Origin: Sphingomonadales bacterium BRH_c3
GTDB taxonomy: Bacteria > Pseudomonadota > Alphaproteobacteria > Sphingomonadales > Sphingomonadaceae
Assembly (NCBI GenBank): GCA_001515985.1
Contig: LOET01000008.1
Span: forward strand, 1-52,175
DNA length: 52,175 nucleotides
Direction of reading: 5' to 3'
Positions 1-14,515 of the stretch are shown here, piece after piece. The translations under genes were made by a program, and so were the position numbers. Each line of letters opens with the position of its first letter. Within the stretch, counting starts at the first letter, position 1. Below the pieces are notes generated by a model. It ran no database searches and was not told where the DNA came from. It worked only from the letters and a program-made list of their open reading frames with translations.

Positions 1-92
1 GCAAGCCGCCACATTCCCCACGCAATCGGAGCGATCTCGATACCGCTTTGTCCCAACCGACGGTTGGCAGGTGGAGGCAGCAATGCGTTCAT
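1..92 (-). CDS. Aldo/keto reductase, N-terminal fragment (runs off the left edge)
   Basis: Reading the minus strand from the ATG at 92 gives 30 residues, MNALLPPPAN followed by RRLGQSGIEIAPIAWGMW, then the window ends. The arginine-rich first strand followed by LGxSGIE and a GMW/GTW turn is the standard start of aldo/keto reductases, NAD(P)H-dependent carbonyl reductases. Its ATG overlaps the TGA stop of the upstream lacI gene (ATGA), so it is the third gene of the sulfoquinovosidase-lacI operon. In the known oxidative desulfonation route for sulfoquinovose (sulfo-SMO), an aldo/keto reductase (SmoB) reduces 6-dehydro-glucose to glucose, so a similar job is an attractive inference. The active-site Asp-Tyr-Lys-His residues lie outside the window, and only the family call is supported by sequence. 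Confidence 0.75.
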   Translation of the reverse strand, partial: MNALLPPPANRRLGQSGIEIAPIAWGMWRL

Positions 93-1102
93 ATTTCTGT
101 CCTTATGGGCGCCGTTATCGAAGCGCGTTCGACCAATCGGTGCGGCAGCCGGCGGTGCGTGATATCGCCGCCATTGACGAGGATTTCAGCAGCGCTTCGG
201 GCAAGTTCTACCATTGGCTGGTGAATGGTTGTGAGTGGCGGCCAGACCGTCCGCGCAAGCGTGGTATCATCAAAGCCCGCAACCGAAAGTTCGCCGGGCA
301 AGTTCATGTTGCGATCATGCGCCACTGCCAGAACTCCGGCAGCCATATCATCATTGGAGGCAAAGATTGCCGTGGGCGGACAGCTCATGTCCAATAGCAG
401 GCGCGCAGCGCGCACCCCGCTATCAAAGTCAAACTCACCGTCGCACACCAGGCCGGGCTCGAAGGGTATTCCCGCACGGTCGAGCGCGCGGCGATAACCG
501 AACAGGCGCTCTTCACTTGCCATATGGCTCCTGTGGCCCTTGATGAAACCAATCCGCCGGTGTCCGCAATTGACGAGATGGGTGGTCATATCATCTGCAG
601 CCTGCACATCGTCCATGAACACGGAACTTGTCAGCGCGTGGTTTGTACCGGGCGAGATCCGCACAAACGGAATGTCGAGCGCGTCAAGCGTCCGCAAGAC
701 CGGCTCGCAATCTGTGACCGGCGATGACAGTATCAACCCGTCGACCTGCGTTTCCGAGACGAGGCCGCGCACCTGCTCGCCGACATCGGGATCTTCGACA
801 TTAACCGGCTGGGCAAGCAGGCGTATGCCCTTTTCATGGCAATAGTCCCAGCACCCCTTCTGGATCTGGAACATGTAGTAAGGGCTGTGATTGTCATAAA
901 TCAGCGCGATCTGGTTGGATTTCGCACCTGACAGGATCCGGGCTGCGACGCTGGGACGGAAATCAAGCGCTTTCATGGCCGACTCCACTCGTTCGCGCAT
1001 TTCCTTGCTGACATAGGGATGGCCGTTCAAAACCCGGCTGACAGTCTTGACCGCCACGCCTGCCTTGGCCGCAACATCCCTGATATTGGCCCGTTCGCTC
1101 AT
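89..1102 (-). CDS. LacI-family repressor of the sulfoquinovoside locus
   Basis: This 337-residue protein has a LacI-type DNA-binding head at residues 1-55 (RANIRDVAAKAGVAVKTVSR, then the RVLNG hinge-side helix). A periplasmic-binding-protein-like sugar sensor domain follows, with VAGFDDTTLA and a TTIHQP segment near the end. Length is normal for the family. It starts with ATG overlapping the stop of the GH31 gene (ATGA), preceded inside the GH31 gene by a strong AAGGAGGTG ribosome-binding site, so the two are translationally coupled. The following aldo/keto reductase gene overlaps its own stop. It probably binds the divergent promoter at 3130-3199 and responds to sulfoquinovose or a derivative; the ligand is inferred only from the neighbours. 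Confidence 0.9.
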   Translation of the reverse strand: MSERANIRDVAAKAGVAVKTVSRVLNGHPYVSKEMRERVESAMKALDFRPSVAARILSGAKSNQIALIYDNHSPYYMFQIQKGCWDYCHEKGIRLLAQPVNVEDPDVGEQVRGLVSETQVDGLILSSPVTDCEPVLRTLDALDIPFVRISPGTNHALTSSVFMDDVQAADDMTTHLVNCGHRRIGFIKGHRSHMASEERLFGYRRALDRAGIPFEPGLVCDGEFDFDSGVRAARLLLDMSCPPTAIFASNDDMAAGVLAVAHDRNMNLPGELSVAGFDDTTLARTVWPPLTTIHQPMVELARSAAEILVNGGDITHRRLPHRLVERASITAPIRTEI

Positions 1103-3099
1103 GCGGCGAGCACCTCCTTCAGACCTGAAAACAGCGTGGCATGCGCGCTGTCAGAGTTATAGAATACCGGCGGCTGACCGATCGGCGCCGCAATCTCGTG
1201 CGTGCCGGGGGCAAAGTCCATGCCTGTCCAGGCGTGCCGCCAGGCCCGATCGCCCGGCAGGCTCACGCGGCGCGACGTCGCGCCAGCTTCAATGACCGGT
1301 GCCACCAGCAGGTCGGCTCCGTACAGATATTGGTCCTGCACCGCAAACAGGCCGGCATCCTCAGGATAGTGTAGAAAGATCGGGCGCTGCAATGGCAGCC
1401 CGCTTGATGCCGCCTCGCGGCAAAGCGTGCGGACATATGGTGCAAGATGGGCGTGCACCCTGCTCCAGCGCGCAAAGCAGCCCAGCAGTTCGGGCGTGCT
1501 GTCATACTGCAAATTCTCGTCAGGCCGATTGCCTTCATGGCTGCGCATTACCGGCGCAAATGCGGCAAGTTCGCACCAGCGCTGCATCAGTTCCTCAGTC
1601 CGGATATTGCCAAGCAACGAAGTGTATCCGCCGCAGTCCGAATGGCTATAGGCATTACCGACAAGGCCTGCCGAAAGCGCAGCTGTGATCACCGTTCCAA
1701 TCCCGTCATGGCGGGAGAAATCAACCGACTGGTCACCTGCCCAAAGCAACGGACAGTGCGCCTGCACCCCGGAAAATCCGGCGCGCATGAAGAACACCGC
1801 ATCGCCTGTCTTGCCGCGCTTGGCCACGGCATGCGCGTTGACTTCGGCCCACAGCACCGGCCAATTGTTGTGCGCTTCCATCGGGTTCGATCCGTCAGAC
1901 AAACGAACATCGGTCGGCAGATATTCGCCAAAATCGGCCATCCAGCCGGAGATGCCGATATCGAGCATCTCGCGCCCCAATATCCGTTCGGCAAACCACT
2001 CGCGAGTTTCCTCTCGTGTAAAGTCGAGCACGCCGCAATCGAACTCGCCAAAATCAACCAGATAAACCTCATCGCTGTCCGGCCTGAGGCAGAGATGCCC
2101 GCCTTCGGCGGCTTCGCGGTAGAGGCTGCCCTCTTTGCTTAGGTAAGGGTTGGCATAGGCAAGAAAGCGGATGCCGCGCTGTTTCAGGCGAGCGATATGC
2201 TGCGGCAAATCGGGGTATCGCCGCTCGTCGCGCTGCCAATCCCAGAACAGCCGGCGGCCAAAGCTCGTCTCGCGGATGCCGGCCCAATCCTCGCACCACA
2301 ATCCAGAGATAGCCGTCCCGGCCTCAATGAAACGCTCTAGCCGTTCAAGGCTGCCCAATCCGTCTTTCAGACCGACGATCGCGCCGCCGATTGCCCATTC
2401 CGGCAATTCGGGCTGGCGGCCGAACCGGCCGGCCAATTGCTGCACCAGCCCGGCCGGGCCTTCATCCACAAAACATTCGAAGCGCGCTTCCCCGGCCCAG
2501 ACCTCGACATTGTGCCGCGCCGGATCGGTGAAATCGAGCGCGCTGAAGCAAGTGGCATCAAGGTGCACCGCCAACCAGCGCGAAGTAAGGAAGGTGGGCT
2601 GCGGATAATTGGTGTTCCAGTAATCACCGCCAGCCATCCCCTGCGCATCCATTTGCCGGGTAATCTCGCTCGACTTGTCGCGGCCAACGCCGGGTTCGCT
2701 GGTCCACATCGGAAAGCGCCGTCCGTTGAGCGCCAGGTAACTCATCTGTTCGCCCCCGCCCCACACGGTTTCACCCGCTTCGGCATAAAGGCTCAGCCAC
2801 AGCCGGTCCGCCGCCGGATCTTGAGCGCGGACGGTGAACCATTCATCGCCAAGCGTAATTCGGGCAACCGGATTGCCCTCGACAAGCAGTTCGACGCCGC
2901 CAGGCCGCACCTGCCATTCGCGCGGCGTCAAATGATCGAAGGGGTTATCCTCGATCCGGAAATTGCCGCGATACATCTCCACAACGGGCGCGCCGCGAGC
3001 TATGACCACCGCAGGACAGTCCGGAGTATGGCGCAAGACGATTTCCCCCCTAACAAGGAGTTCGAACCCGCCAGAATCCTCCAAAACCCGCAGTTGCAC
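1099..3099 (-). CDS. yihQ: GH31 sulfoquinovosidase, KERWY type
   Basis: Probable glycoside hydrolase family 31 enzyme that releases sulfoquinovose from sulfoquinovosyl glycerol or sulfolipid. It aligns by eye along its length with E. coli YihQ. With the GTG start at 3099 the protein has 666 residues, against 678 for YihQ. On this numbering the nucleophile is Asp389 (MADFGEYLP) and the acid/base Asp456 (WAGDQ). The sulfonate-binding set is Lys245, Glu270, Arg283, Trp286 and Tyr492, the K-E-R-W-Y pattern described for Agrobacterium-type sulfoquinovosidases (E. coli has Q-Q-R-W-Y). No signal peptide is seen, so it is cytoplasmic. I chose GTG at 3099 because GAAGGGGG sits just upstream; an ATG at 3201 would add 34 unlikely residues and overlap the promoter. 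It begins a minus-strand operon with lacI and an aldo/keto reductase. Confidence 0.88.
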   Translation of the reverse strand: MQLRVLEDSGGFELLVRGEIVLRHTPDCPAVVIARGAPVVEMYRGNFRIEDNPFDHLTPREWQVRPGGVELLVEGNPVARITLGDEWFTVRAQDPAADRLWLSLYAEAGETVWGGGEQMSYLALNGRRFPMWTSEPGVGRDKSSEITRQMDAQGMAGGDYWNTNYPQPTFLTSRWLAVHLDATCFSALDFTDPARHNVEVWAGEARFECFVDEGPAGLVQQLAGRFGRQPELPEWAIGGAIVGLKDGLGSLERLERFIEAGTAISGLWCEDWAGIRETSFGRRLFWDWQRDERRYPDLPQHIARLKQRGIRFLAYANPYLSKEGSLYREAAEGGHLCLRPDSDEVYLVDFGEFDCGVLDFTREETREWFAERILGREMLDIGISGWMADFGEYLPTDVRLSDGSNPMEAHNNWPVLWAEVNAHAVAKRGKTGDAVFFMRAGFSGVQAHCPLLWAGDQSVDFSRHDGIGTVITAALSAGLVGNAYSHSDCGGYTSLLGNIRTEELMQRWCELAAFAPVMRSHEGNRPDENLQYDSTPELLGCFARWSRVHAHLAPYVRTLCREAASSGLPLQRPIFLHYPEDAGLFAVQDQYLYGADLLVAPVIEAGATSRRVSLPGDRAWRHAWTGMDFAPGTHEIAAPIGQPPVFYNSDSAHATLFSGLKEVLAA

Positions 3100-3129
3100 G
3101 CGGAAAACCCCCTTCAAATCCCGATATGT

Positions 3130-3199
3130 GTTATTCTGAGCACACACACGCCGCGTCAATATGACACCGCTTGACATATCGCCGCGGCCAGCGCAAATC
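3130..3199. promoter_or_regulatory. Divergent promoter and candidate LacI operator of the sulfoquinovoside locus
   Basis: Between the GH31 gene and the receptor gene lies an imperfect palindrome at 3159-3179, with arms ATATG and CATAT and the core GACACCGCTTGAC. A TTGACA at 3171-3176 could be the -35 of the receptor promoter, with a weak -10 near 3194-3199. On the minus strand TTGACG (3154-3159) and AATAAC (3130-3135) are 18 bp apart and would place the GH31 transcript start near 3120, just ahead of its ribosome-binding site. A repressor bound here would cover both -35 elements. The positions are direct reading; the binding assignment is inference, and the arms are short. Confidence 0.45.
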
Positions 3200-3279
3200 A
3201 AGCAGCAATTACGTTAAGGACGGGATGTGCCCCGGCGCAATCCTCGTCTGCTGGATGACATGGGAAGAGGAGGAATTTG

Positions 3280-5628
3280 ATGAGGTACAACACCACCGTG
3301 CGCGCGCGCGCATTGGCCATTTCTGCGAGCGCTCTGGCTCTCGCAGCCAGCGTTCCTGCGCTGGCTCAAAGTTCTGGCGATGTGGAGGACGAAAGCGGGA
3401 TCAAGACAATCGTCGTGACCGCACAGAAAGTCGCGGAAGATGTGCAGGACGTCCCGATTTCCATCACCGCTGTCACCGGTGAGCGCCTGGAGCAGACTGG
3501 GACCAACAGCCTCGAAGGGCTGACTCAACTTGTCCCCTCTGTCACCTTCCGCAAGGGGACCACCAGCGCCAATAGCGCGATAGTCATGCGCGGTGTGGGG
3601 ACCATCACTTTCTCCGTCGCTGCCGAACCAAGCGTATCGACCGTAGTGGACGGCATCGTCCTGAGCCGTTCAGGCCAGGCATTCATGGATCTGGTCGACG
3701 CCGAACGCCTGGAAGTCCTGCGCGGTCCGCAAGGCACGTTGTTTGGCAAGAACGCATCGGCGGGCCTCGTCAACATCGTCTCGAAAGGGGGCACGGACTC
3801 GCTTGAGGTAACAGGGCGTGCGGATTGGTACGAAGGTGACGAGTATCGCCTGCGCGGCTCTGTATCCGGGCCGCTCTCCACTGACCTGTCAGGCCGCCTC
3901 ACCGGCTTTTACGGCAGTTATGACGGCAACATCACCAATGTCTTCGGCGGAGAAGAGAACAAGGTCAACGGCTACGAGCATTACGGTGCCCGCGGGTTGA
4001 TCGATTACGATAACGGGCCTGCACGGTTGCGGCTGATCGCGGATTATTTCCGCGCAGATGACGATTGTTGCGCCGATGTAACGACAGTCAGCCGGGGCGC
4101 AGTGCTCGATGCGGAGCTGGGCCTGCCCGGGGGTGTCGCGCAGGGATTGGACCAGCGCTATGTCAATCATAACCTGGTAACGCAAACACGCGATCGCCAG
4201 TGGAGCCTGACCGCGTCGGGCGACTTTGACGTGCTCAGCGACCACACACTGAGTGTCGTGACAGGATATCGCAACTGGCAGAACACTGAGATCCGCGAAG
4301 GGGATTTCCTGCCGCGTGCACTGGTAGGCACCGCAGAGCTGCACGATCTTGGCGTGGTCAAGACCGAGCAGTTTTCGGTCGAGGCAAGGCTCGCGTCGGA
4401 CCAGAGCAAACCATTCTTTTACCAGATTGGCGGCTTCTATTGGCGATCGGACAACCAGCAACAGTTCACGCGTGAAGACATTACATGCGCCAGTTCCACT
4501 CTGCCGGTCGATCCGGTTACCGGCGGGCAACCGTGCAACCTGACGGATACGGTCAACACACTGTTCCCCACCGCCACATCGGATAGCGATGTCGATTCGC
4601 GCAACTACGCATTGTTTGGCCAGGCGACCTATCGCTTCAGCGACATGTTCGCAGTGACTGGCGGCCTGCGCTACACATGGGACGAGCTCGATTTCGTCCA
4701 TATTCGCGCGCCGGGCGTCAATGCCACCGACGGCACGCCTGCAACCGGCCCGGGCGTTTCCGGCAATCCGGCCGGTGGCACTATTGCCAGTGGCGGCAAC
4801 GGCACCAACACTTCAACCGGCAGCAGCAGCAATGGCAATTTGTCGGGCAAGGCCGTGCTGCAGTTTACCCCGAGCGAAGACGCGATGTTTTATGGTTCTT
4901 ACACCCGAGGCTACAAGGGGCCGGCATTCAACGTCTTCTTCAACCATACCGCACCCAACAATGCGGTTCCGATTGACGCAGAAACTTCGGACGCGTTTGA
5001 AATCGGCCTGAAGTCTCAGTTCGCGGACAATCGGATTCAGTTCAACGTTTCGGCATTCACTGTCGAGTATGATGGCTTCCAGGCAAATAACTTTGTCTTG
5101 CTTAACGGAGCAACCGTCACCAACCTGACCAATGCCGGCACCGTAAAGAGCGAAGGTTTCGAAGTCGATGTGCTGGCAGTGCCGGTTGACGGGCTCACCC
5201 TGCGCGCAAGCGGTGCCTATGCCGATGCCAAGGTGAAGAAATTCAATCCGAATCCGATCACCAATGCGCCAGATGCCCGCGACGGCACGAAGCTGCCGCT
5301 GGCGCCGGAGTTCGTATATACACTTGGCGCCAGCTATGAGACCGATGTCGGCGCCCTGCGGCTTTATGCAGACACCGACTTCCGGCATGTCAGTTCGCAG
5401 TTCTCCGATCTTGGCGAGGGCGGACCGATCGATTCCTATGGCATCTGGAACGCGTCCATTGGCGTATCCGATCCGGATGATCGCTATCGCCTGACGTTCC
5501 ACGTGCGCAATATCACCGATGAAAGCTATGCCTTGCTGAATGTCGGCAATGGCCAGCGCCTGCAGATCCCGCGCGATGCGGACCGCTATTTCGGAGTGAG
5601 CTTGCGCGTTGGTTTTGGTGGCAACTGA
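3280..5628 (+). CDS. TonB-dependent outer-membrane receptor (sulfoquinovoside locus)
   Basis: This 782-residue protein has a signal peptide ending in SVPALA-Q at about residue 30. A TonB-box-like IKTIVVTAQK follows at about residues 41-50. The plug domain carries the hallmark LEVLRGPQGTLFGKNASAG, and many aromatic beta-strands extend to the C-terminus. It would import a substrate larger than about 600 Da, or a scarce one, across the outer membrane with energy from TonB-ExbB-ExbD. The ATG at 3280 has GAGGAGG six bases upstream; a TTG codon directly before it is not needed. It is transcribed divergently from the sulfoquinovosidase operon and followed by the MFS permease, so a sulfoquinovosyl glycerol or sulfolipid-derived glycoside is the inferred substrate. 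The C-terminus (GFGGN) lacks the usual terminal aromatic residue. Confidence 0.92.
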   Translation: MRYNTTVRARALAISASALALAASVPALAQSSGDVEDESGIKTIVVTAQKVAEDVQDVPISITAVTGERLEQTGTNSLEGLTQLVPSVTFRKGTTSANSAIVMRGVGTITFSVAAEPSVSTVVDGIVLSRSGQAFMDLVDAERLEVLRGPQGTLFGKNASAGLVNIVSKGGTDSLEVTGRADWYEGDEYRLRGSVSGPLSTDLSGRLTGFYGSYDGNITNVFGGEENKVNGYEHYGARGLIDYDNGPARLRLIADYFRADDDCCADVTTVSRGAVLDAELGLPGGVAQGLDQRYVNHNLVTQTRDRQWSLTASGDFDVLSDHTLSVVTGYRNWQNTEIREGDFLPRALVGTAELHDLGVVKTEQFSVEARLASDQSKPFFYQIGGFYWRSDNQQQFTREDITCASSTLPVDPVTGGQPCNLTDTVNTLFPTATSDSDVDSRNYALFGQATYRFSDMFAVTGGLRYTWDELDFVHIRAPGVNATDGTPATGPGVSGNPAGGTIASGGNGTNTSTGSSSNGNLSGKAVLQFTPSEDAMFYGSYTRGYKGPAFNVFFNHTAPNNAVPIDAETSDAFEIGLKSQFADNRIQFNVSAFTVEYDGFQANNFVLLNGATVTNLTNAGTVKSEGFEVDVLAVPVDGLTLRASGAYADAKVKKFNPNPITNAPDARDGTKLPLAPEFVYTLGASYETDVGALRLYADTDFRHVSSQFSDLGEGGPIDSYGIWNASIGVSDPDDRYRLTFHVRNITDESYALLNVGNGQRLQIPRDADRYFGVSLRVGFGGN

Positions 5629-5644
5629 CCGCAGCTAAAGCTTG

Positions 5645-5678
5645 AAATGGGCCGCCGGAGCAATCAGGTGGCCCATTT
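5645..5678 (+). terminator. Hairpin after the receptor gene (possible weak terminator)
   Basis: AAATGGGCC at 5645-5653 pairs perfectly with GGCCCATTT at 5670-5678, forming a 9-bp stem with a 16-base loop, 17 bases after the receptor stop. The T run after the stem is only TTTTG, so termination would be partial. It could lower expression of the following permease relative to the receptor. Confidence 0.45.
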
Positions 5679-5744
5679 TGCCTGAAGTCGGGGCAAAGTA
5701 GGCGCTGATCCTGGGCATTCCAGCGTGAAATGAGGAAGAAATTG

Positions 5745-7007
5745 ATGGGCGTTCTTTCACCAACCCGTCGCTGGTCGCTCTTTATCGTGCTGTGCATTGC
5801 CGGGATTTTCAACGCGATGGATCGGCCCATCATCGCGATCCTCAAACCCGATATGATGGCCGACTTCGGGTGGACAGACAGCGATTTTGGTGACCTTGCC
5901 GCAGTAACGCAGTTCGCCGCTGCCTTTGCGTTTCTGTTCACAGGCTGGCTGGTCGATCGCCTTGGCGTCAATCGCTCGATGCAGCTTGGCGCATCTGCGT
6001 GGAGCGTGGCCGCCATGGCTCATGGCTGGGCGATTACTACCTGGCAGGTGGTGGGCGCGCGCGTTGGCCTGGGCGTTACCGAAGCGGTCCAGACCCCGCT
6101 GACGATCAAGGCAGTGGCCGCGCTATTCGAACCTAATCGCCGTTCGCTGGCATTTGGAGTTGCGACGCTTCTGGCCGGAGCCGGCACGATTGCCATGCCG
6201 TTTGTCATACCTGCTCTGGCAGTCACGACCGGGTGGCGCGGCGCACTGGTGGTCGGCGGTATCGGCGGGCTTATATCGCTGGCACTATGGATGTGGTTGG
6301 CGCGCGGCATAGATTTTACCGTGCGATCATCGAATGAAACGGCAGAAGCGGGCACCGGCAACCCAGGCAACCCCGTTTTGGATTATGGCCCGATCTTGGC
6401 CAATCGCAAGACCTGGGCAATCGTGATTGCCAAGGCGCTGTCCGATATGACGTGGTGGTTCATAAATTTCTGGCTGGCGGATTTTTACCGCAAGGAGTTC
6501 GGGCTGACCATTCTGGAGCTGGCGATCCCTCTGGCGATCGCCTTTGCCGGATCCGGCCTGGGCGCAATGTTGGCAGGATGGGGCTCAACCCGCTTGCTCG
6601 AACGCGGCTGGTCGGTGAATCGGGTGCGCAAAACAGTCATGCTGTTATCAGCACTCGTCGTTGCGCCCTTGCCTTTGGTGCTGGAGCTGAATGCCTTCTG
6701 GCCGGTTGCCATCATGATGGGTGTCGTGATGGCAGGCCACCAGGGTTTCTCATTGTCGATCTTTTCCGTCATCACGGATGTTGTGCCCACAGCCAAGGTT
6801 GGCCGTGTCACCGCCTTCGGCGCTTTCATGGGCAATATGGGCGGGGTGCTGATCAGCCTGGTGACCGGCAGGGTCCTGGATGCCGGATTTGGCTTCGCTC
6901 CCCTGTTCCTGTTCGCTGCAGCTTCATACCTGCTGGCGCTGGCGTGGTTCCAGTTGCTGCTCCCGGAAATTCGGCGTGATGAGGGGGCCCTGGAGACAAT
7001 GGCCTGA
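5745..7007 (+). CDS. MFS permease, organic-anion (ACS-like) type
   Basis: Major facilitator superfamily transporter of 420 residues with about 12 hydrophobic segments. The N-terminal segment resembles the anion:cation symporter branch (hexuronate and related acids): NAMDRPIIAILKPDM, then DFGWTDSDFGDL before helix 2 and the loop motif GWLVDRLGVNR. The ATG at 5745 is preferred because GAGGAAG lies eight bases upstream; an ATG at 5730 would overlap that site and has none of its own. The position, downstream of the TonB receptor and divergent from the sulfoquinovosidase, suggests it carries the anionic sugar sulfonate across the inner membrane. That substrate is inferred; another acidic sugar is possible. 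Confidence 0.85.
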   Translation: MGVLSPTRRWSLFIVLCIAGIFNAMDRPIIAILKPDMMADFGWTDSDFGDLAAVTQFAAAFAFLFTGWLVDRLGVNRSMQLGASAWSVAAMAHGWAITTWQVVGARVGLGVTEAVQTPLTIKAVAALFEPNRRSLAFGVATLLAGAGTIAMPFVIPALAVTTGWRGALVVGGIGGLISLALWMWLARGIDFTVRSSNETAEAGTGNPGNPVLDYGPILANRKTWAIVIAKALSDMTWWFINFWLADFYRKEFGLTILELAIPLAIAFAGSGLGAMLAGWGSTRLLERGWSVNRVRKTVMLLSALVVAPLPLVLELNAFWPVAIMMGVVMAGHQGFSLSIFSVITDVVPTAKVGRVTAFGAFMGNMGGVLISLVTGRVLDAGFGFAPLFLFAAASYLLALAWFQLLLPEIRRDEGALETMA

Positions 7008-7096
7008 GTGCTGCCAACCTGGATGCGATGTTCCAGGCAATCGGTTGCGGATTTGTCCGCTAGCAGACGGTTTGGAAAATCGGTTTGGGACCAGAT

Positions 7097-8176
7097 ATGA
7101 CGGATCCGCAGAGAATTTCGATCGACAGCAAAGGTGACCTTTTCGGCGAGATCTATATTGCCGAACAGGGCAGCGATGGGGAAAACCAGCCCAAAGGGTC
7201 CCTTTTGCCCGGCCTTCTGGTGACATTTGCCGCAGCCGCAGCCGCTGCATGGCTTTCGGAACACTATGGTTTCCCGATTATCCTGATGGGGCTGCTGGTG
7301 GGGCTTTCGCTCAATTTCGTGTCGCGCGATACTGCAGTTCACCGCGGTCAGGATTTCGCTAGCCAGACCTTTCTGCGTTTGGGGATCGTCGCTCTTGGGT
7401 TGCAGGTAACGCTCGATCAAGTGCACGGACTGGGCCTTCAGTCGCTCCTAGCGCTGATCGGAATCATGACCGTTACCTTCATTGCCGGTATTGCCGGAGC
7501 CCGCCTAACAGGCCAGTCGCGCTATGCCGGGATATTGGCCGGCGGGGCGACCGCCATCTGCGGTGCCAGCGCTGCCTTGGCACTATACGGGGTCATCGGG
7601 CGGAAACGCCTTCCCCAGGCGCAATTCGCGCTCACCCTGGTCGGTGTGAGCCTGGCCAGCGCGCTGGCGATGTCGCTTTACCCAATGATTGCCGCCGAGA
7701 TCGGGCTGACCGACCGGCAAGCCGGTTTCCTGATCGGCGCATCGGTACACGATGTCGCCCAGGCCATTGGCGGCGGGTACGCTTATTCCGACCTTGCCGG
7801 AAGCGAAGCGACGATTGTCAAATTGTCTCGTGTCGCCTTGCTTGCACCGGTGGTCATGCTGATATCGCTGTGGCTTGGTGCCGCCGAAGTATCCGGGTCA
7901 CGGCTTTCGCTGAAGCGGTTGCGGTTGCCCTGGTTCATCACGGCCTTTGCCCTGCTGGTGATCCTCAACAGCAGTTTCGATCTGCCTGAGCAGGTTCGCA
8001 CGATGTCGCTGGCGGGCTCGAAGGGCTTGCTATTGCTCGCGGTTACAGCAACCGCCATGCGATCGCGCGTCGACCTGATCATGGAGTTGGGCTGGAAAGC
8101 GGGGACGCCGATCGTAGCCGCATCGCTTGCCAGCTTCCTAGCATCACTGGCTTATGTGGTCTGGATCGGATTTTAA
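7097..8176 (+). CDS. yeiH: YeiH-family putative sulfate/sulfite exporter
   Basis: Membrane protein of 359 residues with about 10 hydrophobic segments. It carries the YeiH/UPF0324 family signatures: GASVHDVAQAIGGGYA in the second half and GGATAICGASAALAL in the first. The family is classed as putative sulfate exporters, but its chemistry is poorly tested. It lies 89 bp after the MFS gene on the same strand, probably in the same transcript. In a sulfoquinovose locus, export of sulfite or sulfate set free by desulfonation would be its natural job, a role usually given to TauE-type exporters. The start is the ATG at 7097; an in-frame TTG upstream at 7085 has no better ribosome-binding site. The first 40 residues are hydrophilic and acidic. 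Confidence 0.85.
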   Translation: MTDPQRISIDSKGDLFGEIYIAEQGSDGENQPKGSLLPGLLVTFAAAAAAAWLSEHYGFPIILMGLLVGLSLNFVSRDTAVHRGQDFASQTFLRLGIVALGLQVTLDQVHGLGLQSLLALIGIMTVTFIAGIAGARLTGQSRYAGILAGGATAICGASAALALYGVIGRKRLPQAQFALTLVGVSLASALAMSLYPMIAAEIGLTDRQAGFLIGASVHDVAQAIGGGYAYSDLAGSEATIVKLSRVALLAPVVMLISLWLGAAEVSGSRLSLKRLRLPWFITAFALLVILNSSFDLPEQVRTMSLAGSKGLLLLAVTATAMRSRVDLIMELGWKAGTPIVAASLASFLASLAYVVWIGF

Positions 8177-8301: not shown

Positions 8302-9339
8302 CTACGCGGTTTCACGGGCTATCAAATGTGGTGGCAAAACCAGGCTTTCAGTATCCACGCCGGCAAGCCTCCGCAGGAGCAAATCTACAAGGCCTTTAGC
8401 TCCTGCGGCAATATCCTGTCTCACAGTCGTAAGCGGCGGGACCGTCTGGCTCGCGATCGGTAGATCGTCGAAGCCGATCACTTTCACAGAATTTGGCACC
8501 GACACTCCACGCTCTCGAAGCTCTCTCAAGCAAGCAACCGCTACAGCGTCGGTGGCCGCAAAGATTCCGTCGACCTTGCCTTCGATCTCGCTCAAATGCT
8601 CCGCGATCTCTCCGTTCATGCGATCAGCCGAAAGATGTGTAGGCAGCGCGCGGATCGGGATCGACATTCGATCGGCGATTTCTTTCGCACCGGCAAATCG
8701 GGCTGCGAACTCGATCGGTTCGGTATCGCCCAGAAAGGCAAGGCTTCTGGCCCCTGCGGCAATCAGCCTTTCAGCGGCGAGCTTGCCGCCGAGCCGGTTG
8801 TCACTGCCGACAACGCAGTGGCGCTGCCCCTCCTGGTGGTTGCCCCAAACAACCATTGGCAAATATCCATCGGCAATCTCCTCGATCCGGTCGAACTGGT
8901 CGGACTGGCCGATCACAATCACGCCATCGACTATGCCGGAGCCGATAAAGCGATCTAGCCAATCCTCATCCTGTGCCGGGATCACGCGCCGCAGCATCAG
9001 ATCGTACCCCTTATCCGTGAGCTCATCGGCCAAATGGCCGAGCAGCGTCATGAAGAAGGTATCGGAAATCTGCTGATGCACATCGTGGCCTAGCGGAATG
9101 GCCACCCCTATCACGCCGGTCTTCTGCCTGCGCAGCTTGCTCGCCATCTGGTTGGGCCGGAACCCATGCTGTCGCGCAAGCGCTTCGATCTTTTCGCGCG
9201 TTTTGGCGTTGACCAGGCTCTTGCCTGCAAGTGCCCGCGATACCGTGCCCGGAGACACGCCTGCAAGCCTGGCCAGATCGGTAATGTTACGGACGGGCCG
9301 GCTGGTGTTTTCCGATTCAGGATGTTCGTGTTCAGACAT
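8302..9339 (-). CDS. LacI-family repressor of the sucrose locus
   Basis: LacI-family regulator of 345 residues. A hydrophilic lead of about 16 residues is followed by the helix-turn-helix NITDLARLAGVSPGTVSRAL, and then the sugar-sensor domain with VIGFDDLPIA and PPLTTVRQD near the end. Its ATG follows the TAA of the MFS permease gene with no base between, so the two are cotranscribed. The perfect palindrome at 10745-10760 with a central CG fits the operator type of this family. It is the likely repressor of both divergent transcripts, relieved by sucrose, fructose or a fructose phosphate. The effector is inferred. Confidence 0.9.
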   Translation of the reverse strand: MSEHEHPESENTSRPVRNITDLARLAGVSPGTVSRALAGKSLVNAKTREKIEALARQHGFRPNQMASKLRRQKTGVIGVAIPLGHDVHQQISDTFFMTLLGHLADELTDKGYDLMLRRVIPAQDEDWLDRFIGSGIVDGVIVIGQSDQFDRIEEIADGYLPMVVWGNHQEGQRHCVVGSDNRLGGKLAAERLIAAGARSLAFLGDTEPIEFAARFAGAKEIADRMSIPIRALPTHLSADRMNGEIAEHLSEIEGKVDGIFAATDAVAVACLRELRERGVSVPNSVKVIGFDDLPIASQTVPPLTTVRQDIAAGAKGLVDLLLRRLAGVDTESLVLPPHLIARETA

Positions 9340-10674
9340 TTAGCTTGCAATCGGTTCTTGCTCACGCGGTACGCGATGTCCAGCGTCAACAAACAGCGTT
9401 GCTATCGCCCCGGCAATCATCAGCATCCCGCCCAGCATCAGGACATTGCGCGGATCACCGCCTAGTATCGGGTTGTAGATCAGCGGCATCGTCAATGTCT
9501 GGATCAACATGGGAATGACAATGAACATGTTGAAGATGCCCATATAAACTCCATTGCGTTCAGCCGGGATGGAATCCGCCAGCATCACATAGGTATTCCC
9601 CATCATTCCGGCCCAGCCGATCCCGATCCCCAGCATCAGCACGAACAATGCGGCCGGCGTTTCAACCCCGGGCAACATCAGCATGGCCGTGCCCGATGCA
9701 GTCAAGCAGGCCGCATGTACCAGCCTTGCGCCGAGCCGGGCAACGATCGGGATCAGCGCAAGTGCACCGACAAAGGCGATGAAATTATAGAACGCACCGG
9801 CTTGCTGAGTGGTGAGCGTCGCCTCCCTGAACGCGGCGCTTGACGGGTCACTGGTATCGTAAAGAGCCCGGCCAACGGCAAAGGTCACATATTGCCAATA
9901 GGCAAACATTGCGTACCACTGACACAGCATGGCCACGGCAAGTTGTCGCATTGGCCTGGGCATGTCGCGGATGGCGTCGCCGATCTCGGTCAATGTGGCT
10001 TTGACAGTCATCGGCTTACTTTCGAGCACATCCTTTTCGTCATCGGTCATCGGCAACTCAGGAACACGCCACACCGACCAGACGATTGTCGAGATCGACA
10101 GGATCGCTCCGATCGTGAAGGCGATGCGTACGATAACCGGTATCCCATTATCGTCGAGAACGTCGCGGGCGACGAACGCGGTCAGCAAAGTCGGAGCGAG
10201 ATAGGAAAGCGTCTGTGCAAGGCCAGTAAATGCGCTTTGTGTGAGGAATCCCATAGAGCGCTGGTCGGGCAACAGCCGATCGGCAACATAGGCGCGGTAG
10301 GGCTCCATTGTGATGTTGTTGCCTGCATCGAGTATCCAGAGCAGCGAAGCTGCCATCCACAGCGTGCTCGAATAAGGCATCAGGAAAAGGCTGATCGTGC
10401 AAATGATCGCGCCGATCAGGAAATAGGGCGTACGGCGGCCATAGCGCGAATTGGTGCGATCGCTCATCGCCCCCACGATCGGCTGGATGATGAGGCCGGT
10501 CATCGGCCCAGCCAACCACAGCAGCGGCATGGTAGCCTCGTCTGCGCCAAGGAAACCATAGATCGGCCCCATGTTGGCCTGCTGCAGCCCGAAACTGAAC
10601 TGAAGGCCGAAAAAGCCGATATTCATTTCGATGATTCGCAGCAGTGAAAGCCGTGGTTTTCCGGCAGTTTGCAT
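9340..10674 (-). CDS. MFS sucrose/maltose-type proton symporter
   Basis: Permease of 444 residues with about 12 membrane spans. It belongs by appearance to the SLC45/GPH-like sucrose transporter branch: FGLQFSFGLQQANMGPIYGFLG in span 1 (only the general pattern is conserved), GPMTGLIIQPIVGAMSD, and the loop motif RYGRRTPYF. Proteins of this type import intact sucrose or maltose with protons, as proposed for the Xanthomonas and Caulobacter homologues. The ATG at 10674 has AGAGGG about nine bases upstream; an ATG at 10701 is less likely. It forms an operon with lacI and is divergent from the receptor and GH68 genes, which supports sucrose as the substrate. Confidence 0.88.
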   Translation of the reverse strand: MQTAGKPRLSLLRIIEMNIGFFGLQFSFGLQQANMGPIYGFLGADEATMPLLWLAGPMTGLIIQPIVGAMSDRTNSRYGRRTPYFLIGAIICTISLFLMPYSSTLWMAASLLWILDAGNNITMEPYRAYVADRLLPDQRSMGFLTQSAFTGLAQTLSYLAPTLLTAFVARDVLDDNGIPVIVRIAFTIGAILSISTIVWSVWRVPELPMTDDEKDVLESKPMTVKATLTEIGDAIRDMPRPMRQLAVAMLCQWYAMFAYWQYVTFAVGRALYDTSDPSSAAFREATLTTQQAGAFYNFIAFVGALALIPIVARLGARLVHAACLTASGTAMLMLPGVETPAALFVLMLGIGIGWAGMMGNTYVMLADSIPAERNGVYMGIFNMFIVIPMLIQTLTMPLIYNPILGGDPRNVLMLGGMLMIAGAIATLFVDAGHRVPREQEPIAS

Positions 10675-10714
10675 GATCAGATCCCTCTCTCGCACCAGCA
10701 TTCCCCTGGCGTTG

Positions 10715-10730
10715 TGTCATTTTCGTGACA
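10715..10730. promoter_or_regulatory. Short inverted repeat near the permease promoter
   Basis: TGTCA and TGACA are separated by six bases (TTTTCG) 41 bp upstream of the permease start. The spacing resembles a CRP/FNR-type half-site pair, but the arms are only five bases. It may be a regulator site or part of a -35 element; no firm call is possible. Confidence 0.25.
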
Positions 10731-10744
10731 TAGAACACCCGCAA

Positions 10745-10784
10745 TTGCAAACGTTTGCAACTTTGTTATTGCAATCGTTTGCAT
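10745..10784. promoter_or_regulatory. Tandem LacI-type operators of the sucrose locus
   Basis: TTGCAAACGTTTGCAA at 10745-10760 is a perfect 16-bp palindrome with a central CG, typical of LacI-family operators. A second, imperfect copy, TTGCAATCGTTTGCAT, lies at 10769-10784. The centres are 24 bp apart, a little over two helical turns, so two dimers could bind on nearly the same face. Both lie between the divergent permease (start 10674) and receptor (start 10848) genes and would control both. Confidence 0.8.
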
Positions 10785-10847
10785 TGGAATTATTCCTTGT
10801 CGCGAATCGCGCATTGATGGTGCGAGCCAATGAGGAGAGTTTTTGCC

Positions 10848-13319
10848 ATGAAGTTTCGTCACGCTCTGGCTTTCGGCGTTGCGCTGAATGCCATTTCGAC
10901 CCCTGCCTTCGCGCAGGATCAGTCCCCCGCCGCTAATGCCGATTCGACGCAAGAGGACAATGTCATCATCGTCACTGGTGTGGCCCGCAGCCAGAACCGC
11001 CTCGAAAGCTCGGTATCCATCAGCGCAGTCAGCGCAGAATCGATTGCCAATTTGAACCCGCGATCTTCCGCTGACCTCATTCGCCAGATCCCGGGTATTC
11101 GATCAGAGGCTTCAGGCGGTGAAGGCAATGCCAATATTGCGGTACGCGGCATTCCCGTGTCGACCGGCGGTGCGCGCTATATCCAGCTTCAGGAAGATGG
11201 ACTGCCGGTTCTAGAGTTCGGCGACATCATTTTCGGCAATGCTGACAATTTCGTTCGCGCAGATCGCAATATTGCGCGGGTTGAAGCGATCCGCGGCGGT
11301 TCGGCATCGACATTTGCTTCGAACTCACCCGGCGGCATCATCAACTTCATCTCCAAGACGGGCACCCAGGAAGGCGGCGCCATCCAGGGAACGGTTGGTG
11401 TGGATTTCGAGACCTACCGCCTCGACTTCGATTATGGCTCAAGCCTCAGCGAAGATACCTATTTCCACGTCGGCGGTTTCTACCGCACTGGCGAAGGTGC
11501 CCGCGACACCGGCTTTAACGGCAGTAACGGCGGCCAGATCAAGGCAAACCTGACCAAGGAATTTGACAGCGGCTTCGTCCGCTTCTCCGCCAAATATCTG
11601 GATGACAGCACGCCCACGATCCTGCCCCAGCCCGTGTTCGTCGGTGGGACTGACAGCAATCCCGATTTCAATGCGATCCCAAATTTCGATCCGCGCCGGG
11701 ATTCGCTTTACAGCCGCTTCATCACCAACGCGGTCACGCTGGATGGGGACAACAACCCCACCTCGTTCAATTTCAATGATGGCCTGTCGGTCAAGTCCAA
11801 GGCTTTCGGCGTCGAAGCCGAGGTCGAGTTCGCCCCCGGCTGGACGCTCAACAACAAATTCCGCTTTGCTGACAATTCGGGCAGCTTCCTCTCGCCCTTC
11901 CCGGCAAGCGCCGGAGATGCCCAGTCTATCGCTGATGGAATTGGCGGCGCGGGCTCAAGCATTGTTTTCGCAAGCGGGCCCAACTCCGGCTCGGTTGCTG
12001 ACCCTGCCCTCATCGGCGGCAATGGCCTGCTGACCAATGTCGTGGTGTTCAACGTCCGGCTCAACAGCCTCGACAACATTACCAACGACATGCGCGTGTC
12101 GAAGGATTTCGACTTCGGTGGTGGTTCAGCCAGCTTCACGGCCGGCTTCTACGCATCGCGTCAGGACGTGAACACTGACTGGCTATGGACTTCGCACGTC
12201 CAGACGGTTGAGGGTGACGGAAACGCCGTGCTGGTCGACATCCTCGATGCGAATGGCGATCCCGTGACACAGAACGGCGTCGTGGGATTTGGGGCCAGCT
12301 TCTTCGGCAACTGCTGCCGCCGCAATTACGATGTTCGCTACGACACATATGCGCCCTTCGCTTCGCTCTCGCTCGAACTTGATCGCCTTACCCTCGATGG
12401 CAGCATCCGCTATGATTTCGGCGAGGCTGACGGCACGATCACCGGGTCGGACAGCGGCTTTGGCATTGGCCTGACGAGTTTCGATTTCAACAATGACGGC
12501 GTGATCGATCCAGCTGAGGCGCAAACCGGCGTCTTGCCGCTGACCGATGCGCGCCCGGTCAATTACGACTACGATTTCTTCTCGTTCTCGCTGGGTGCGA
12601 ACTATCTGCTCACCGATGATCTCTCGATCTTCGCGCGTTACAGCCAGGGCGGGCGCCATACGGCAGACCGGAGCCTGTTCTCACCTGCGGTAAGCGCAGT
12701 CGATGGCGATACGCCCGGCGGTGACGGCGGGGTGATTGCAGACGTCAATCAGATGGAGGCAGGCCTGAAGTACCAGGGTGGAGGTGCCTCGCTTTATGCC
12801 ACCGCCTTCTACGCCGAAACGAGCGAAACCAATGTCGAGATCGCGCCACTCGTGCTCACAGACACGGACTATGAAGCATTCGGTATCGAGCTCGAAGGCG
12901 CTTACAGAATGGGGCCGTTCTCGATTTCGGCCGGTGCAACCTGGACGGATTCCGAAATCAAGCGGGCGCTCGACGCCAGCGTTGTCGGTAATACTCCTCG
13001 GCGCCAGGCTGACTTCGTCTATCAGGCCACTGCACAATATGAAGATGACTTCATCACGGCTGGCCTGAATGCCATCGGCACGACCGACAGTTTCGCGCAG
13101 GATTCCAACCAGCTGAAATTGCCGGGCTATACGCAGGTCAACGCCTTCCTTGCGGTGCGACCGCTTGAACGGCTTGAACTGTCGCTCAACGCGAATAACC
13201 TCTTCAATGAATTCGGCTATACCGAAGCGGAAGAGGGCTCAATTCCGGCCAACGGGATCGTGCGCGCGCGTTCCATCGCCGGTCGTACGATTTCGGCTTC
13301 GGTCCGCGTCAATTTCTGA
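10848..13319 (+). CDS. TonB-dependent outer-membrane receptor (sucrose locus)
   Basis: Receptor of 823 residues. The signal peptide is MKFRHALAFGVALNA onward with cleavage after AFA, at about residue 21. A TonB-box-like DNVIIVTG follows at about residue 37, then a plug domain with IPGIR and VEAIRGGSASTFASNSPGG, and a long barrel ending in ASVRVNF with a terminal phenylalanine as expected. The start at 10848 is backed by GAGGAG ten bases upstream. It is the first gene of the plus-strand transcript, under the tandem operators, and is followed by a strong terminator before the GH68 gene. It probably imports sucrose or small fructans across the outer membrane, a role like that of SuxA in Xanthomonas. 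The substrate is inferred from the neighbours. Confidence 0.92.
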   Translation: MKFRHALAFGVALNAISTPAFAQDQSPAANADSTQEDNVIIVTGVARSQNRLESSVSISAVSAESIANLNPRSSADLIRQIPGIRSEASGGEGNANIAVRGIPVSTGGARYIQLQEDGLPVLEFGDIIFGNADNFVRADRNIARVEAIRGGSASTFASNSPGGIINFISKTGTQEGGAIQGTVGVDFETYRLDFDYGSSLSEDTYFHVGGFYRTGEGARDTGFNGSNGGQIKANLTKEFDSGFVRFSAKYLDDSTPTILPQPVFVGGTDSNPDFNAIPNFDPRRDSLYSRFITNAVTLDGDNNPTSFNFNDGLSVKSKAFGVEAEVEFAPGWTLNNKFRFADNSGSFLSPFPASAGDAQSIADGIGGAGSSIVFASGPNSGSVADPALIGGNGLLTNVVVFNVRLNSLDNITNDMRVSKDFDFGGGSASFTAGFYASRQDVNTDWLWTSHVQTVEGDGNAVLVDILDANGDPVTQNGVVGFGASFFGNCCRRNYDVRYDTYAPFASLSLELDRLTLDGSIRYDFGEADGTITGSDSGFGIGLTSFDFNNDGVIDPAEAQTGVLPLTDARPVNYDYDFFSFSLGANYLLTDDLSIFARYSQGGRHTADRSLFSPAVSAVDGDTPGGDGGVIADVNQMEAGLKYQGGGASLYATAFYAETSETNVEIAPLVLTDTDYEAFGIELEGAYRMGPFSISAGATWTDSEIKRALDASVVGNTPRRQADFVYQATAQYEDDFITAGLNAIGTTDSFAQDSNQLKLPGYTQVNAFLAVRPLERLELSLNANNLFNEFGYTEAEEGSIPANGIVRARSIAGRTISASVRVNF

Positions 13320-13332
13320 CCGGACGAGGACT

Positions 13333-13374
13333 GGGCCGACCGGATTCCTCCCTTCCGGTCGGCCCTTATTTTTT
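13333..13374 (+). terminator. Strong intrinsic terminator between receptor and GH68 genes
   Basis: GGGCCGACCGGA (13333-13344) pairs with TCCGGTCGGCCC (13354-13365) as a perfect 12-bp stem with a 9-base loop, followed by TTATTTTTTCT. It lies 13 bases after the receptor stop and only 26 bases before the GH68 start, leaving little room for a separate promoter. Readthrough expression of the enzyme genes is therefore likely. Confidence 0.88.
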
Positions 13375-13399
13375 CTGACGCTTTGACTAGGGTGCTGGA

Positions 13400-14515
13400 A
13401 TGACCACAGCCTGGACCGCCGATTGCGTGCGGAAAATCGATCTGCAGCATGCGTCGCGCGTGCCGGTCATTCACTCAGTCGGCCGATCCGAACTCGATCC
13501 TGACCGCGTCTATTGGGACATGTGGCCGATCCAGGATCTGGATGGGCGCATCGCGAACCTTGGCGGCCGCGAATTATGGATGGCGCTGTCTGCTCCAAGG
13601 CGTGACGATCCTGCACTTCGCCACTTCGAAGCGAAGATTCGCTTGCTCGAACGGTTGGGCGATTGCTGGATCGATCGGGGCGATGCATTGCCAGAATTTC
13701 CGGTTGATTATGAGCGCGAATGGGCAGGCTCGGCGGTGAGCGATGGCACCAACGTAACGCTATATTTCACCGCCGCCGGAACCAGCGATCGCCCGGGGGG
13801 CTATCAGCAGCAACTGGTCGAAACCCGTGCCCAGATCGGCGCAGACGGGTTGCCGAAGAACTGGACCCTGCCGCAGCGGTCGGTAACCGCAGATTCCGAA
13901 TTCTACATGCCTGCCAACGCGCACGAGGGCGAGGCTGGCAAGATCAAGGCCTTCCGCGATCCGGCATATTTTCGCGACTCTGCGGACGGAAAGGAATATC
14001 TCATCTTCACGGCCTCGCTCGCCGGGTCAAAGAGCGCCTACAATGGCGCGGTCGGCATCGCACGCCGAAGCGCCGATGGCTGGCAGCTGATTGCCCCGCT
14101 GATCCACGCCGATGGAGTCAACAACGAACTTGAGCGCGCCCATGCGGTTTTCCATGACGGACGCTATTACGTGTTCTGGGTTACCCAGAGCGCCACATTC
14201 GCGCCGGACCTGCAGCATGCGCCCACCGGGCTCTATGGGATGGTGGCGGACAATCTGCTGGGGGACTATAGGCCGCTCAACGGCTCTGGTCTCGTGATTG
14301 CCAATGCCGAAGAAGAACCGTTGCAAAGCTACAGCTGGTTCGTCACGAAAGAGCTGTTGGTATCAAGCTTTGTCGACTTTTATGGATTGAAGGGCAGGCC
14401 CTTGCCAGGACAGGCGCATGAGGCGAGCAGATTCTTCGGCGGTGCGCCCGCTCCCTTGCTGCAGCTGTGCATCGATGGTGATCGATGCAATTTGGCCAAG
14501 CCGGATTTGACATGA
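13400..14515 (+). CDS. GH68 sucrose-cleaving enzyme (levansucrase/invertase family)
   Basis: Family 68 glycoside hydrolase of 371 residues, which splits sucrose and may transfer fructose to water or to fructan. The catalytic triad is readable against Bacillus SacB: nucleophile Asp40 in VYWDMWPIQD, transition-state stabiliser Asp187 in FRDP, and acid/base Glu245 in ELERAH. There is no signal peptide. With a sucrose-type permease and fructokinase in the same locus, it most likely acts in the cytoplasm as an invertase and not as a secreted levansucrase. Some sphingomonad relatives (Zymomonas) export GH68 enzymes without a classical signal, so location is not settled. It overlaps the fructokinase gene by ATGA, showing translational coupling. 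Confidence 0.9.
   Translation: MTTAWTADCVRKIDLQHASRVPVIHSVGRSELDPDRVYWDMWPIQDLDGRIANLGGRELWMALSAPRRDDPALRHFEAKIRLLERLGDCWIDRGDALPEFPVDYEREWAGSAVSDGTNVTLYFTAAGTSDRPGGYQQQLVETRAQIGADGLPKNWTLPQRSVTADSEFYMPANAHEGEAGKIKAFRDPAYFRDSADGKEYLIFTASLAGSKSAYNGAVGIARRSADGWQLIAPLIHADGVNNELERAHAVFHDGRYYVFWVTQSATFAPDLQHAPTGLYGMVADNLLGDYRPLNGSGLVIANAEEEPLQSYSWFVTKELLVSSFVDFYGLKGRPLPGQAHEASRFFGGAPAPLLQLCIDGDRCNLAKPDLT

Follow-up and report, generated by a model that had tools for sequence, protein, structure and literature searches.

The window, the whole stretch of 52,175 nucleotides analysed here, opens contig C8 of a 2.5 Mb assembly (157 contigs, 82% complete). Its left part carries a minus-strand operon and a divergent plus-strand unit of a TonB receptor, an MFS permease and a YeiH-type protein (Table 1). 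The end of contig C94 is identical to window positions 1-1653, base for base and at 100% identity, and because of this exact 1653-base overlap we placed C94 as the left neighbour of C8. The join is made by the overlap only; it is supported by Erythrobacter sp. BWSM_24 (L176), where the same ten genes sit on a single contig in unchanged order. Across the join the operon reads GH31, LacI, aldo/keto reductase (AKR), monooxygenase, GlpD, FMN reductase and RibB, tightly packed and mostly overlapping, with ATGA overlaps seen directly at the GH31/LacI and LacI/AKR junctions. The first-pass annotation had described GH31, LacI and AKR as an ATGA-coupled operon, with which the ORFs and the Pfam/NCBIfam matches agree, and the TonB receptor, MFS and YeiH-family genes as divergent from it, which ORF coordinates and Pfam confirm (TIGR00893 and TIGR00698 stay below cut-off). 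Its forecast of a desulfonating enzyme, dependent on FMN or 2-oxoglutarate, left of position 1 came true, as C94 carries a luciferase-like monooxygenase that matches 7olf/7oh2. Erythrobacter sp. BWSM_24 is also the closest named relative by SmoC among the matches listed (93%), and the host looks like an Erythrobacter-like bacterium with a seemingly complete gene set for the intake and full consumption of sulfoquinovose (SQ), as judged from its genes.

Table 1. Features of the locus, in window coordinates or, where marked L005, on the left-hand stretch
Feature	Coordinates	Strand	Remarks
RibB, extra copy	L005 11491-12099	-	Pfam/NCBIfam
Flavodoxin-type FMN reductase	L005 12096-12677	-	PF03358
GlpD	L005 12668-14173	-	Pfam/NCBIfam
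Luciferase-like monooxygenase	L005 14175-15323	-	7olf/7oh2 best PDB matches
Aldo/keto reductase (SmoB/SquF-like, predicted 6-dehydroglucose reductase), first 31 codons	1..92	-	PF00248; whole gene L005:15278-16192, contig C94
LacI-family repressor, operon gene 2	89..1102	-	Pfam LacI; below every NCBIfam cut-off
GH31 ORF, predicted sulfoquinovosidase	1099..3201	-	Glyco_hydro_31; NF007746; 5ohy
Predicted LacI operator TGACACCGCTTGACA (15 bp)	3162..3176	+	Conserved in GH31/TonB intergenic regions
Predicted TonB receptor promoter: TTGACA 3171-3176, 17 bp, CAAATC 3194-3199	3171..3199	+	-35 box inside operator
TonB-dependent outer-membrane receptor	3277..5628	+	Plug and TonB barrel domains; subfamily tied to SQ loci
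MFS permease, proposed inner-membrane importer	5730..7007	+	MFS_1; TIGR00893 best NCBIfam, below cut-off
YeiH-type membrane protein, proposed sulfite or sulfate exporter	7085..8176	+	PF03601

We compared the GH31 protein with family models and solved structures. It scored 871.6 bits against NF007746 (PRK10426; cut-off 553), and its best PDB match (E 2.8e-247) was 5ohy, which we take to be the Agrobacterium sulfoquinovosidase (SQase). The six top PDB sequences all lay at E ≤1e-176, four of them named YihQ or sulfoquinovosidase and two generic (8r56 and 6pnr); the seventh was YicI, at 5.9e-40. By these PDB scores, rather than by a tree, the protein falls with the SQases as had been proposed, YihQ-type sequences being far ahead of YicI. 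The five-residue K-E-R-W-Y signature claimed for it, presumably the sulfonate-binding set of GH31 sulfoquinovosidases, is complete in the alignment: K279, E304, R317, W320 and Y526 correspond to K245, E270, R283, W286 and Y491 of 5ohy. Both catalytic aspartates, D423 and D490, are present. The protein is of the YihQ type and a predicted sulfoquinovosidase. A plain alpha-glucosidase was also considered and ruled out by the PDB scores, with YihQ-type sequences far above other GH31 members.

The two core enzymes that follow LacI were compared with solved structures as well. The monooxygenase matched 7olf (2.6e-109) and 7oh2 (9e-107), then 7jv3 (4.5e-61) and SsuD 1m41 (1.1e-51); the first two, which bear generic PDB names, we take to be SmoC structures. 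The SmoC pocket residues, which we take from the Agrobacterium work to be W206, R236, H238, R307 and Y341, map to W223, R253, H255, R324 and Y358 and are invariant in 15 aligned sequences; the enzyme is a predicted SQ monooxygenase (SmoC/SquD). The best PDB matches of the AKR were 7bbz (2.6e-53) and 7bby, generically named and presumably SmoB, and motifs with D, Y, K and H, in our understanding the AKR family motif, were found in its sequence; it is a predicted 6-dehydroglucose reductase (SmoB/SquF).

The last three genes of the operon would serve flavin and glycerol. The FMN reductase belongs to PF03358, scores far below the cut-offs of the models for SsuE (25.7 of 164 bits) and MsuE (25.2 of 212.5 bits), and has weak PDB matches, the best at 2.9e-6. 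Another RibB-domain gene, with a longer frame, lies elsewhere in the genome, so the operon RibB is an extra copy. The FMN reductase may be the partner of the monooxygenase, and together with the co-operonic RibB it is a candidate for the flavin source of that enzyme. A glycerol kinase (its frame read through one TGA) was found outside the locus; no second GlpD was found in the 82% complete genome, the operon GlpD being the only one seen. An extra RibB and the only GlpD within the operon fit the use of SQ-glycerol. Of the membrane proteins, the MFS permease has TIGR00893 (D-galactonate transporter) as its best NCBIfam model, at 117.6 bits (cut-off 395), and its ligand may be a sulfoquinovoside. 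The YeiH-type protein exceeds the PF03601 cut-off (174 bits against 24.5) and falls short of that of TIGR00698 (113 against 232.6), for which reason it is filed at the Pfam level only; its cargo may be sulfite. No sulfite oxidase (PF00174) was found in the 82% complete genome.

The receptor has both Plug and barrel domains. Its predicted structure (mean pLDDT 76) has the TonB-receptor fold, and the fold search returned, in the rows shown, TonB-type receptors only, the best being FyuA at 18% identity. The closest folds and NCBIfam models are siderophore receptors, and the folds hold no sugar site; with a best match as distant as this, the fold does not tell the ligand. Scoring the receptor subfamily at E 1e-150, with the two best first-look candidates per genome, we found it in 92 of 397 family genomes: 90 of the 106 with SmoC (16 are without it at this threshold) against 2 of the 291 without (G267 and G327); Fisher tests of such linkage take no account of shared ancestry. 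Among the 90, the receptor is on a different contig from SmoC in six (G020, G116, G250, G271, G301 and G387), about 54 and 283 kb from it in G038 and G140, and near it in the rest. We infer a sulfoquinovoside as its ligand.

The SmoC genomes were defined by monooxygenase matches at E ≤1e-30, which 119 of the 397 family genomes gave; 13 with only 29-36% identity were dropped, leaving 106. When genomes were drawn from the whole class, 21 of 385, our own among them, matched the monooxygenase at 1e-80. Long stretches were taken from 100 of the other 105 family genomes (the five left out have partial, broken or last-ranked monooxygenase matches) and from all 20 class-level ones, which served as an outgroup. 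The family set thus comprises our own locus and 100 others, 80 of the 101 being at least 15 kb long. Greedy ORF calling produced spurious ORFs in GC-rich loci, and 4 of 20 proteins taken further gave no family. The AKR is present at 98 of these 101 loci, LacI at 64, the receptor at 89 at any identity, MFS at 69, the YeiH-type gene at 41, GlpD at 33, the FMN reductase at 26 and RibB at 24, the FMN reductase occurring together with RibB in 24 of its 26 loci. Since only 26 of the 101 carry this FMN reductase, other reductases must serve elsewhere. At ≥38% identity the receptor is found at 84 family loci against none of the 20 outgroup loci, which have one receptor (33% identity), one GH31, 16 GH188-like genes, seven TRAP DctM genes, five MFS genes of another type and two of the window's type. 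A scan of contigs gave at least 560 relatives; of the best 80, which were kept, all 65 that reach 15 kb have GH31, AKR and receptor, and in 16 of the 80 SmoC is identical to a sequence from the family draw.

The SQase itself is exchanged in this setting. GH31 alone occurs at 51 of the 101 family loci and a GH188-like gene alone at 45, five loci (three of them short contigs) have neither, and none has both; the GH188-like genes were assigned by matches to 8qc2/8qc3 at E of about 1e-95. These two entries are SqgA structures according to the part of PMC10755693 available. On a SmoC tree of 121 rows, built by a quick method, the SQase type changes 8 times, at least 7 of them on well-supported branches, and about 5.7 of 7 independent pairs are opposite for GH31 and GH188-like (median p 0.031, range 0.031-0.219). 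Because two unrelated SQases swap in one setting, this is good evidence that the substrate is a sulfoquinovoside. The receptor subfamily occurs at the GH188-type loci too. Its members fall into two tiers of identity to the window's protein, about 65-90% and 40-47%; on the same tree these tiers are exchanged 8 times and receptor presence changes 3 times. The YeiH-type gene, found at only 39 of the 80 long family loci, changes 14 times.

Single loci illustrate several of these events. L044, which has a GH188-like gene and groups within GH31 loci, retains LacI, MFS, the YeiH-type gene, GlpD, FMN reductase and RibB, and is likely a recent swap of the SQase. In three loci of the same genus (L038, L042 and L046), in L037 and in named Porphyrobacter loci, GH31 is just 57-61% identical to that of the window, with SmoC, AKR, LacI, receptor and MFS at about 70-87%; most of them have GlpD at the other end of the locus and are without FMN reductase and RibB. 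This looks like an in-place replacement of the SQase gene. The SQ locus of Sphingopyxis jiangsuensis (L184) has two GH31 matches (81% and 65%), by duplication or frameshift. A SmoC of another family (L124) sits inside the sphingomonad clade with TonB receptor (33%) and MFS (32%) matches close by; it is possibly a transfer of the locus, of which its long branch leaves us unsure.

We analysed the gap between the divergent units for a shared control site. The listed GH31 start, TTG at 3201, is probably too early: as the PDB alignment starts at residue 44, GTG at 3099, behind AAGGGGG, is more likely, and this start leaves the conserved putative operator in the intergenic gap. The receptor probably starts at the ATG at 3280. 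The predicted operator lies inside a wider ATATGACA-CCGCT-TGACATAT. Scanning 181 sphingomonad loci gave 115 with a gap of less than 700 bases between the divergent gene and the receptor, 101 of them distinct. The 15-mer is present in 96 of the 101 distinct regions (81 exact, 15 with one mismatch) and absent from five, one of which (L213) has an exact copy just beyond the cut piece; in the family draw alone it is present in 43 of 47. The best 9-mer occurs in 103 of the 115 gaps; one mononucleotide shuffle gave no more than 4. A search of the divergent gaps for perfect palindromes yielded no shared element. In the 110 regions with the 15-mer (repeats included), the TTGACA box stands 17 bp from a conserved CAAnTC, and the second -10 position is A in 110 of 110.

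The site follows the GH31 type of locus. With repeats included and up to two mismatches, it lies beside the receptor at 111 of 123 sphingomonad GH31 loci and at none of the 47 GH188-type loci; one of the latter carries a degenerate match at another position. Across whole genomes, 35 of the 397 in the family contain the exact 15-mer, once each, against 2 matches for a reversed control; 34 of the 35 have SmoC, and 72 of the 106 SmoC genomes are without an exact copy. In the only exception, G305 (L287), none of twelve reference genes was found within its 3015 bases. In our own genome the sole exact copy of TGACACCGCTTGACA is that in the GH31/TonB gap; with two mismatches allowed there are eight sites, against 1 in the reversed control and an estimated 5 or so from base composition alone. 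Position and co-occurrence suggest that LacI binds the 15-mer.

Gene content and order, kinship to solved enzymes, conserved residues in the active sites, the linkage across the family and the recurring site lead us to read the locus, with considerable confidence, as a sphingomonad version of the sulfolytic SQ monooxygenase pathway (sulfo-SMO/sulfo-ASMO) with its own transport, control and flavin genes. A sulfoquinovoside, most likely sulfoquinovosyl glycerol, would pass the outer membrane via the TonB receptor and the inner membrane via the MFS permease, and cytoplasmic GH31 would cleave it to sulfoquinovose and glycerol. The monooxygenase, supplied with FMNH2 by the operon FMN reductase and with flavin by the extra RibB, would convert SQ to 6-dehydroglucose and sulfite; the AKR would reduce 6-dehydroglucose to glucose, GlpD would take the glycerol branch, and the YeiH-type protein would export sulfite. 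LacI, on one operator between the divergent units and over the receptor -35 box, would switch both together. The earlier interpretation as a sulfoquinovoside utilisation locus is supported. A wider proposal is that sphingomonads have a dedicated sulfoquinovoside TonB transporter, which joined SmoC-AKR early, was kept through the GH31/GH188 exchange, is run by LacI over the -35 box in the GH31 type, and in part of the family is accompanied by FMN reductase-RibB as a dedicated flavin supply; we hold this somewhat less firmly, as the more probable account.

Other readings of the locus were weighed. That GH31 acts as a plain alpha-glucosidase within a sugar locus, next to a monooxygenase that scavenges sulfur from alkanesulfonates, could be argued from the NCBIfam label of NF007746 ('alpha-glucosidase') and from the membership of the monooxygenase in the SsuD family; it is hardly credible, given a complete K-E-R-W-Y set, YihQ-type structures that match far better than other GH31, a monooxygenase that matches 7olf/7oh2 above SsuD, and GH188-like SQases that substitute for GH31. 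The enzymes might instead form a sulfo-SMO pathway with which the adjacent TonB receptor, MFS and YeiH-type genes have nothing to do. The siderophore-type relatives of the receptor point that way (it could be, for example, a siderophore receptor), as does the wealth of TonB receptors in sphingomonads, whose genomes mostly give tens of candidates at first look. Nevertheless, the subfamily is almost confined to SmoC genomes and mostly lies within some kilobases of SmoC, its promoter carries the conserved site in GH31 loci, and it is present at GH188-type loci as well, which makes this reading quite improbable. There is a small chance that the substrate of the locus is not sulfoquinovosyl glycerol but free sulfoquinovose or a different sulfosugar glycoside, as the sequence does not tell the aglycone, further SQ glycosides exist, and GlpD is at only 33 of the 101 family loci; yet an SQase of either family is present at 96 of them, and the only GlpD found in the genome sits in the operon, which fits glycerol release.

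The conserved 15-mer could also be merely a constrained promoter and not a LacI site. It includes TTGACA, 17 bp from a conserved -10, and its palindrome is only partial; GH188-type loci that do not have it can carry LacI, too, at 60-67% identity; and L155 is a counter-example, with LacI (67%), GH31 and receptor but not the 15-mer. Against this, the nine bases ahead of the -35 are near-invariant in the 110 regions, beyond what a -35 box needs, and the 12 GH31 loci without the 15-mer consist of two cut before the receptor, nine without a LacI at ≥60%, and only L155 with LacI. We consider the promoter-only explanation unlikely and retain the 15-mer as the putative operator of LacI.

Both flanks of the SQ genes carry other systems. 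Adjoining them, window positions 8302-14515 hold a further LacI gene together with a second MFS, a second TonB receptor and a GH68 levansucrase/invertase; this appears to be an independent TonB-linked locus for fructan or sucrose. At the RibB end, a TPR-sulfotransferase gene (L005:9792-11351) is convergent with the operon; beyond it come one more TonB receptor (L005 7142-9652) and two acyl-CoA dehydrogenases. The TPR-sulfotransferase has a match at only 1 of the 80 named loci, the best of at least 560 (L250, 31%).

Sulfoquinovose is the sulfur-containing sugar found in the membranes of plants and algae. Its output is put at about 10 billion tons a year in the literature available in part. The linkage described here yields a candidate receptor, permease, exporter and operator, each open to a single knockout, and the receptor subfamily together with the site may mark SQ users in environmental genomes. 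From the available part of PMC13372026, Novosphingobium is predicted to have the SQ monooxygenase pathway, and a Novosphingobium variant reached over 55% of an SQ-fed mangrove community in a stable-isotope study; the words transporter and outer membrane are absent from its main text as far as available. The accessible portion of a LacI regulon survey (PMC4052901) gives no match for sphingomonad, sulfo or TonB, and no publication dealing with a TonB receptor for SQ turned up in the open-licence PMC literature, judged by title and start of abstract. Both A. tumefaciens and N. aromaticivorans are described as having the sulfo-SMO/ASMO pathway (PMC12890257, available in part); since it is already known in a sphingomonad, what is novel here is the transport, control and flavin supply. 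It looks as if this sphingomonad arrangement is undescribed in the literature searched.

The sulfo-SMO system of Agrobacterium tumefaciens (SmoABC and SmoI) is alike in having a GH31 SQase, a flavin-dependent SQ monooxygenase and an AKR, and the best solved matches of the locus enzymes, 5ohy/5ohs, 7oh2/7olf and 7bby/7bbz, are entries that we take to represent the Agrobacterium Smo set. The fold of SmoA presumably differs from that of the PF03358 flavin reductase of this locus, which in addition has LacI with a conserved site, and GlpD and RibB in the operon. Import differs too: A. tumefaciens has an ABC importer for SQ-glycerol in the available part of PMC9594981, whereas a TonB receptor and an MFS permease are found here. 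The first-pass annotation had named ABC or GPH importers as usual, and TauE exporters as frequent, in such clusters; of these, the Agrobacterium ABC importer was borne out by that source.

The sulfo-ASMO system of Novosphingobium aromaticivorans (SquD and SquF) belongs to a sphingomonad and shares both core enzymes with this locus (PMC12890257 and PMC9594981, each available in part). According to the accessible text of PMC9594981, its cluster is without SsuE and its reductase is unknown, whereas an FMN reductase and RibB follow GlpD here. The FMN reductase is a specific candidate for the type of reductase left open there; it may not be the answer for N. aromaticivorans itself, because only 4 of 30 Novosphingobium-titled loci (among the best 80 of at least 560 relatives, some cut short) carry it. 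SQ loci with GH188 (SqgA) use the same slot, the GH188-like gene replacing GH31 at 45 of the 101 family loci, and Sphingomonas sp. Leaf17 appears in a figure legend in the available part of the GH188 paper (PMC10755693). Such GH188-type loci are without the 15-bp site at the divergent promoter, whereas the window combines GH31 with the site.
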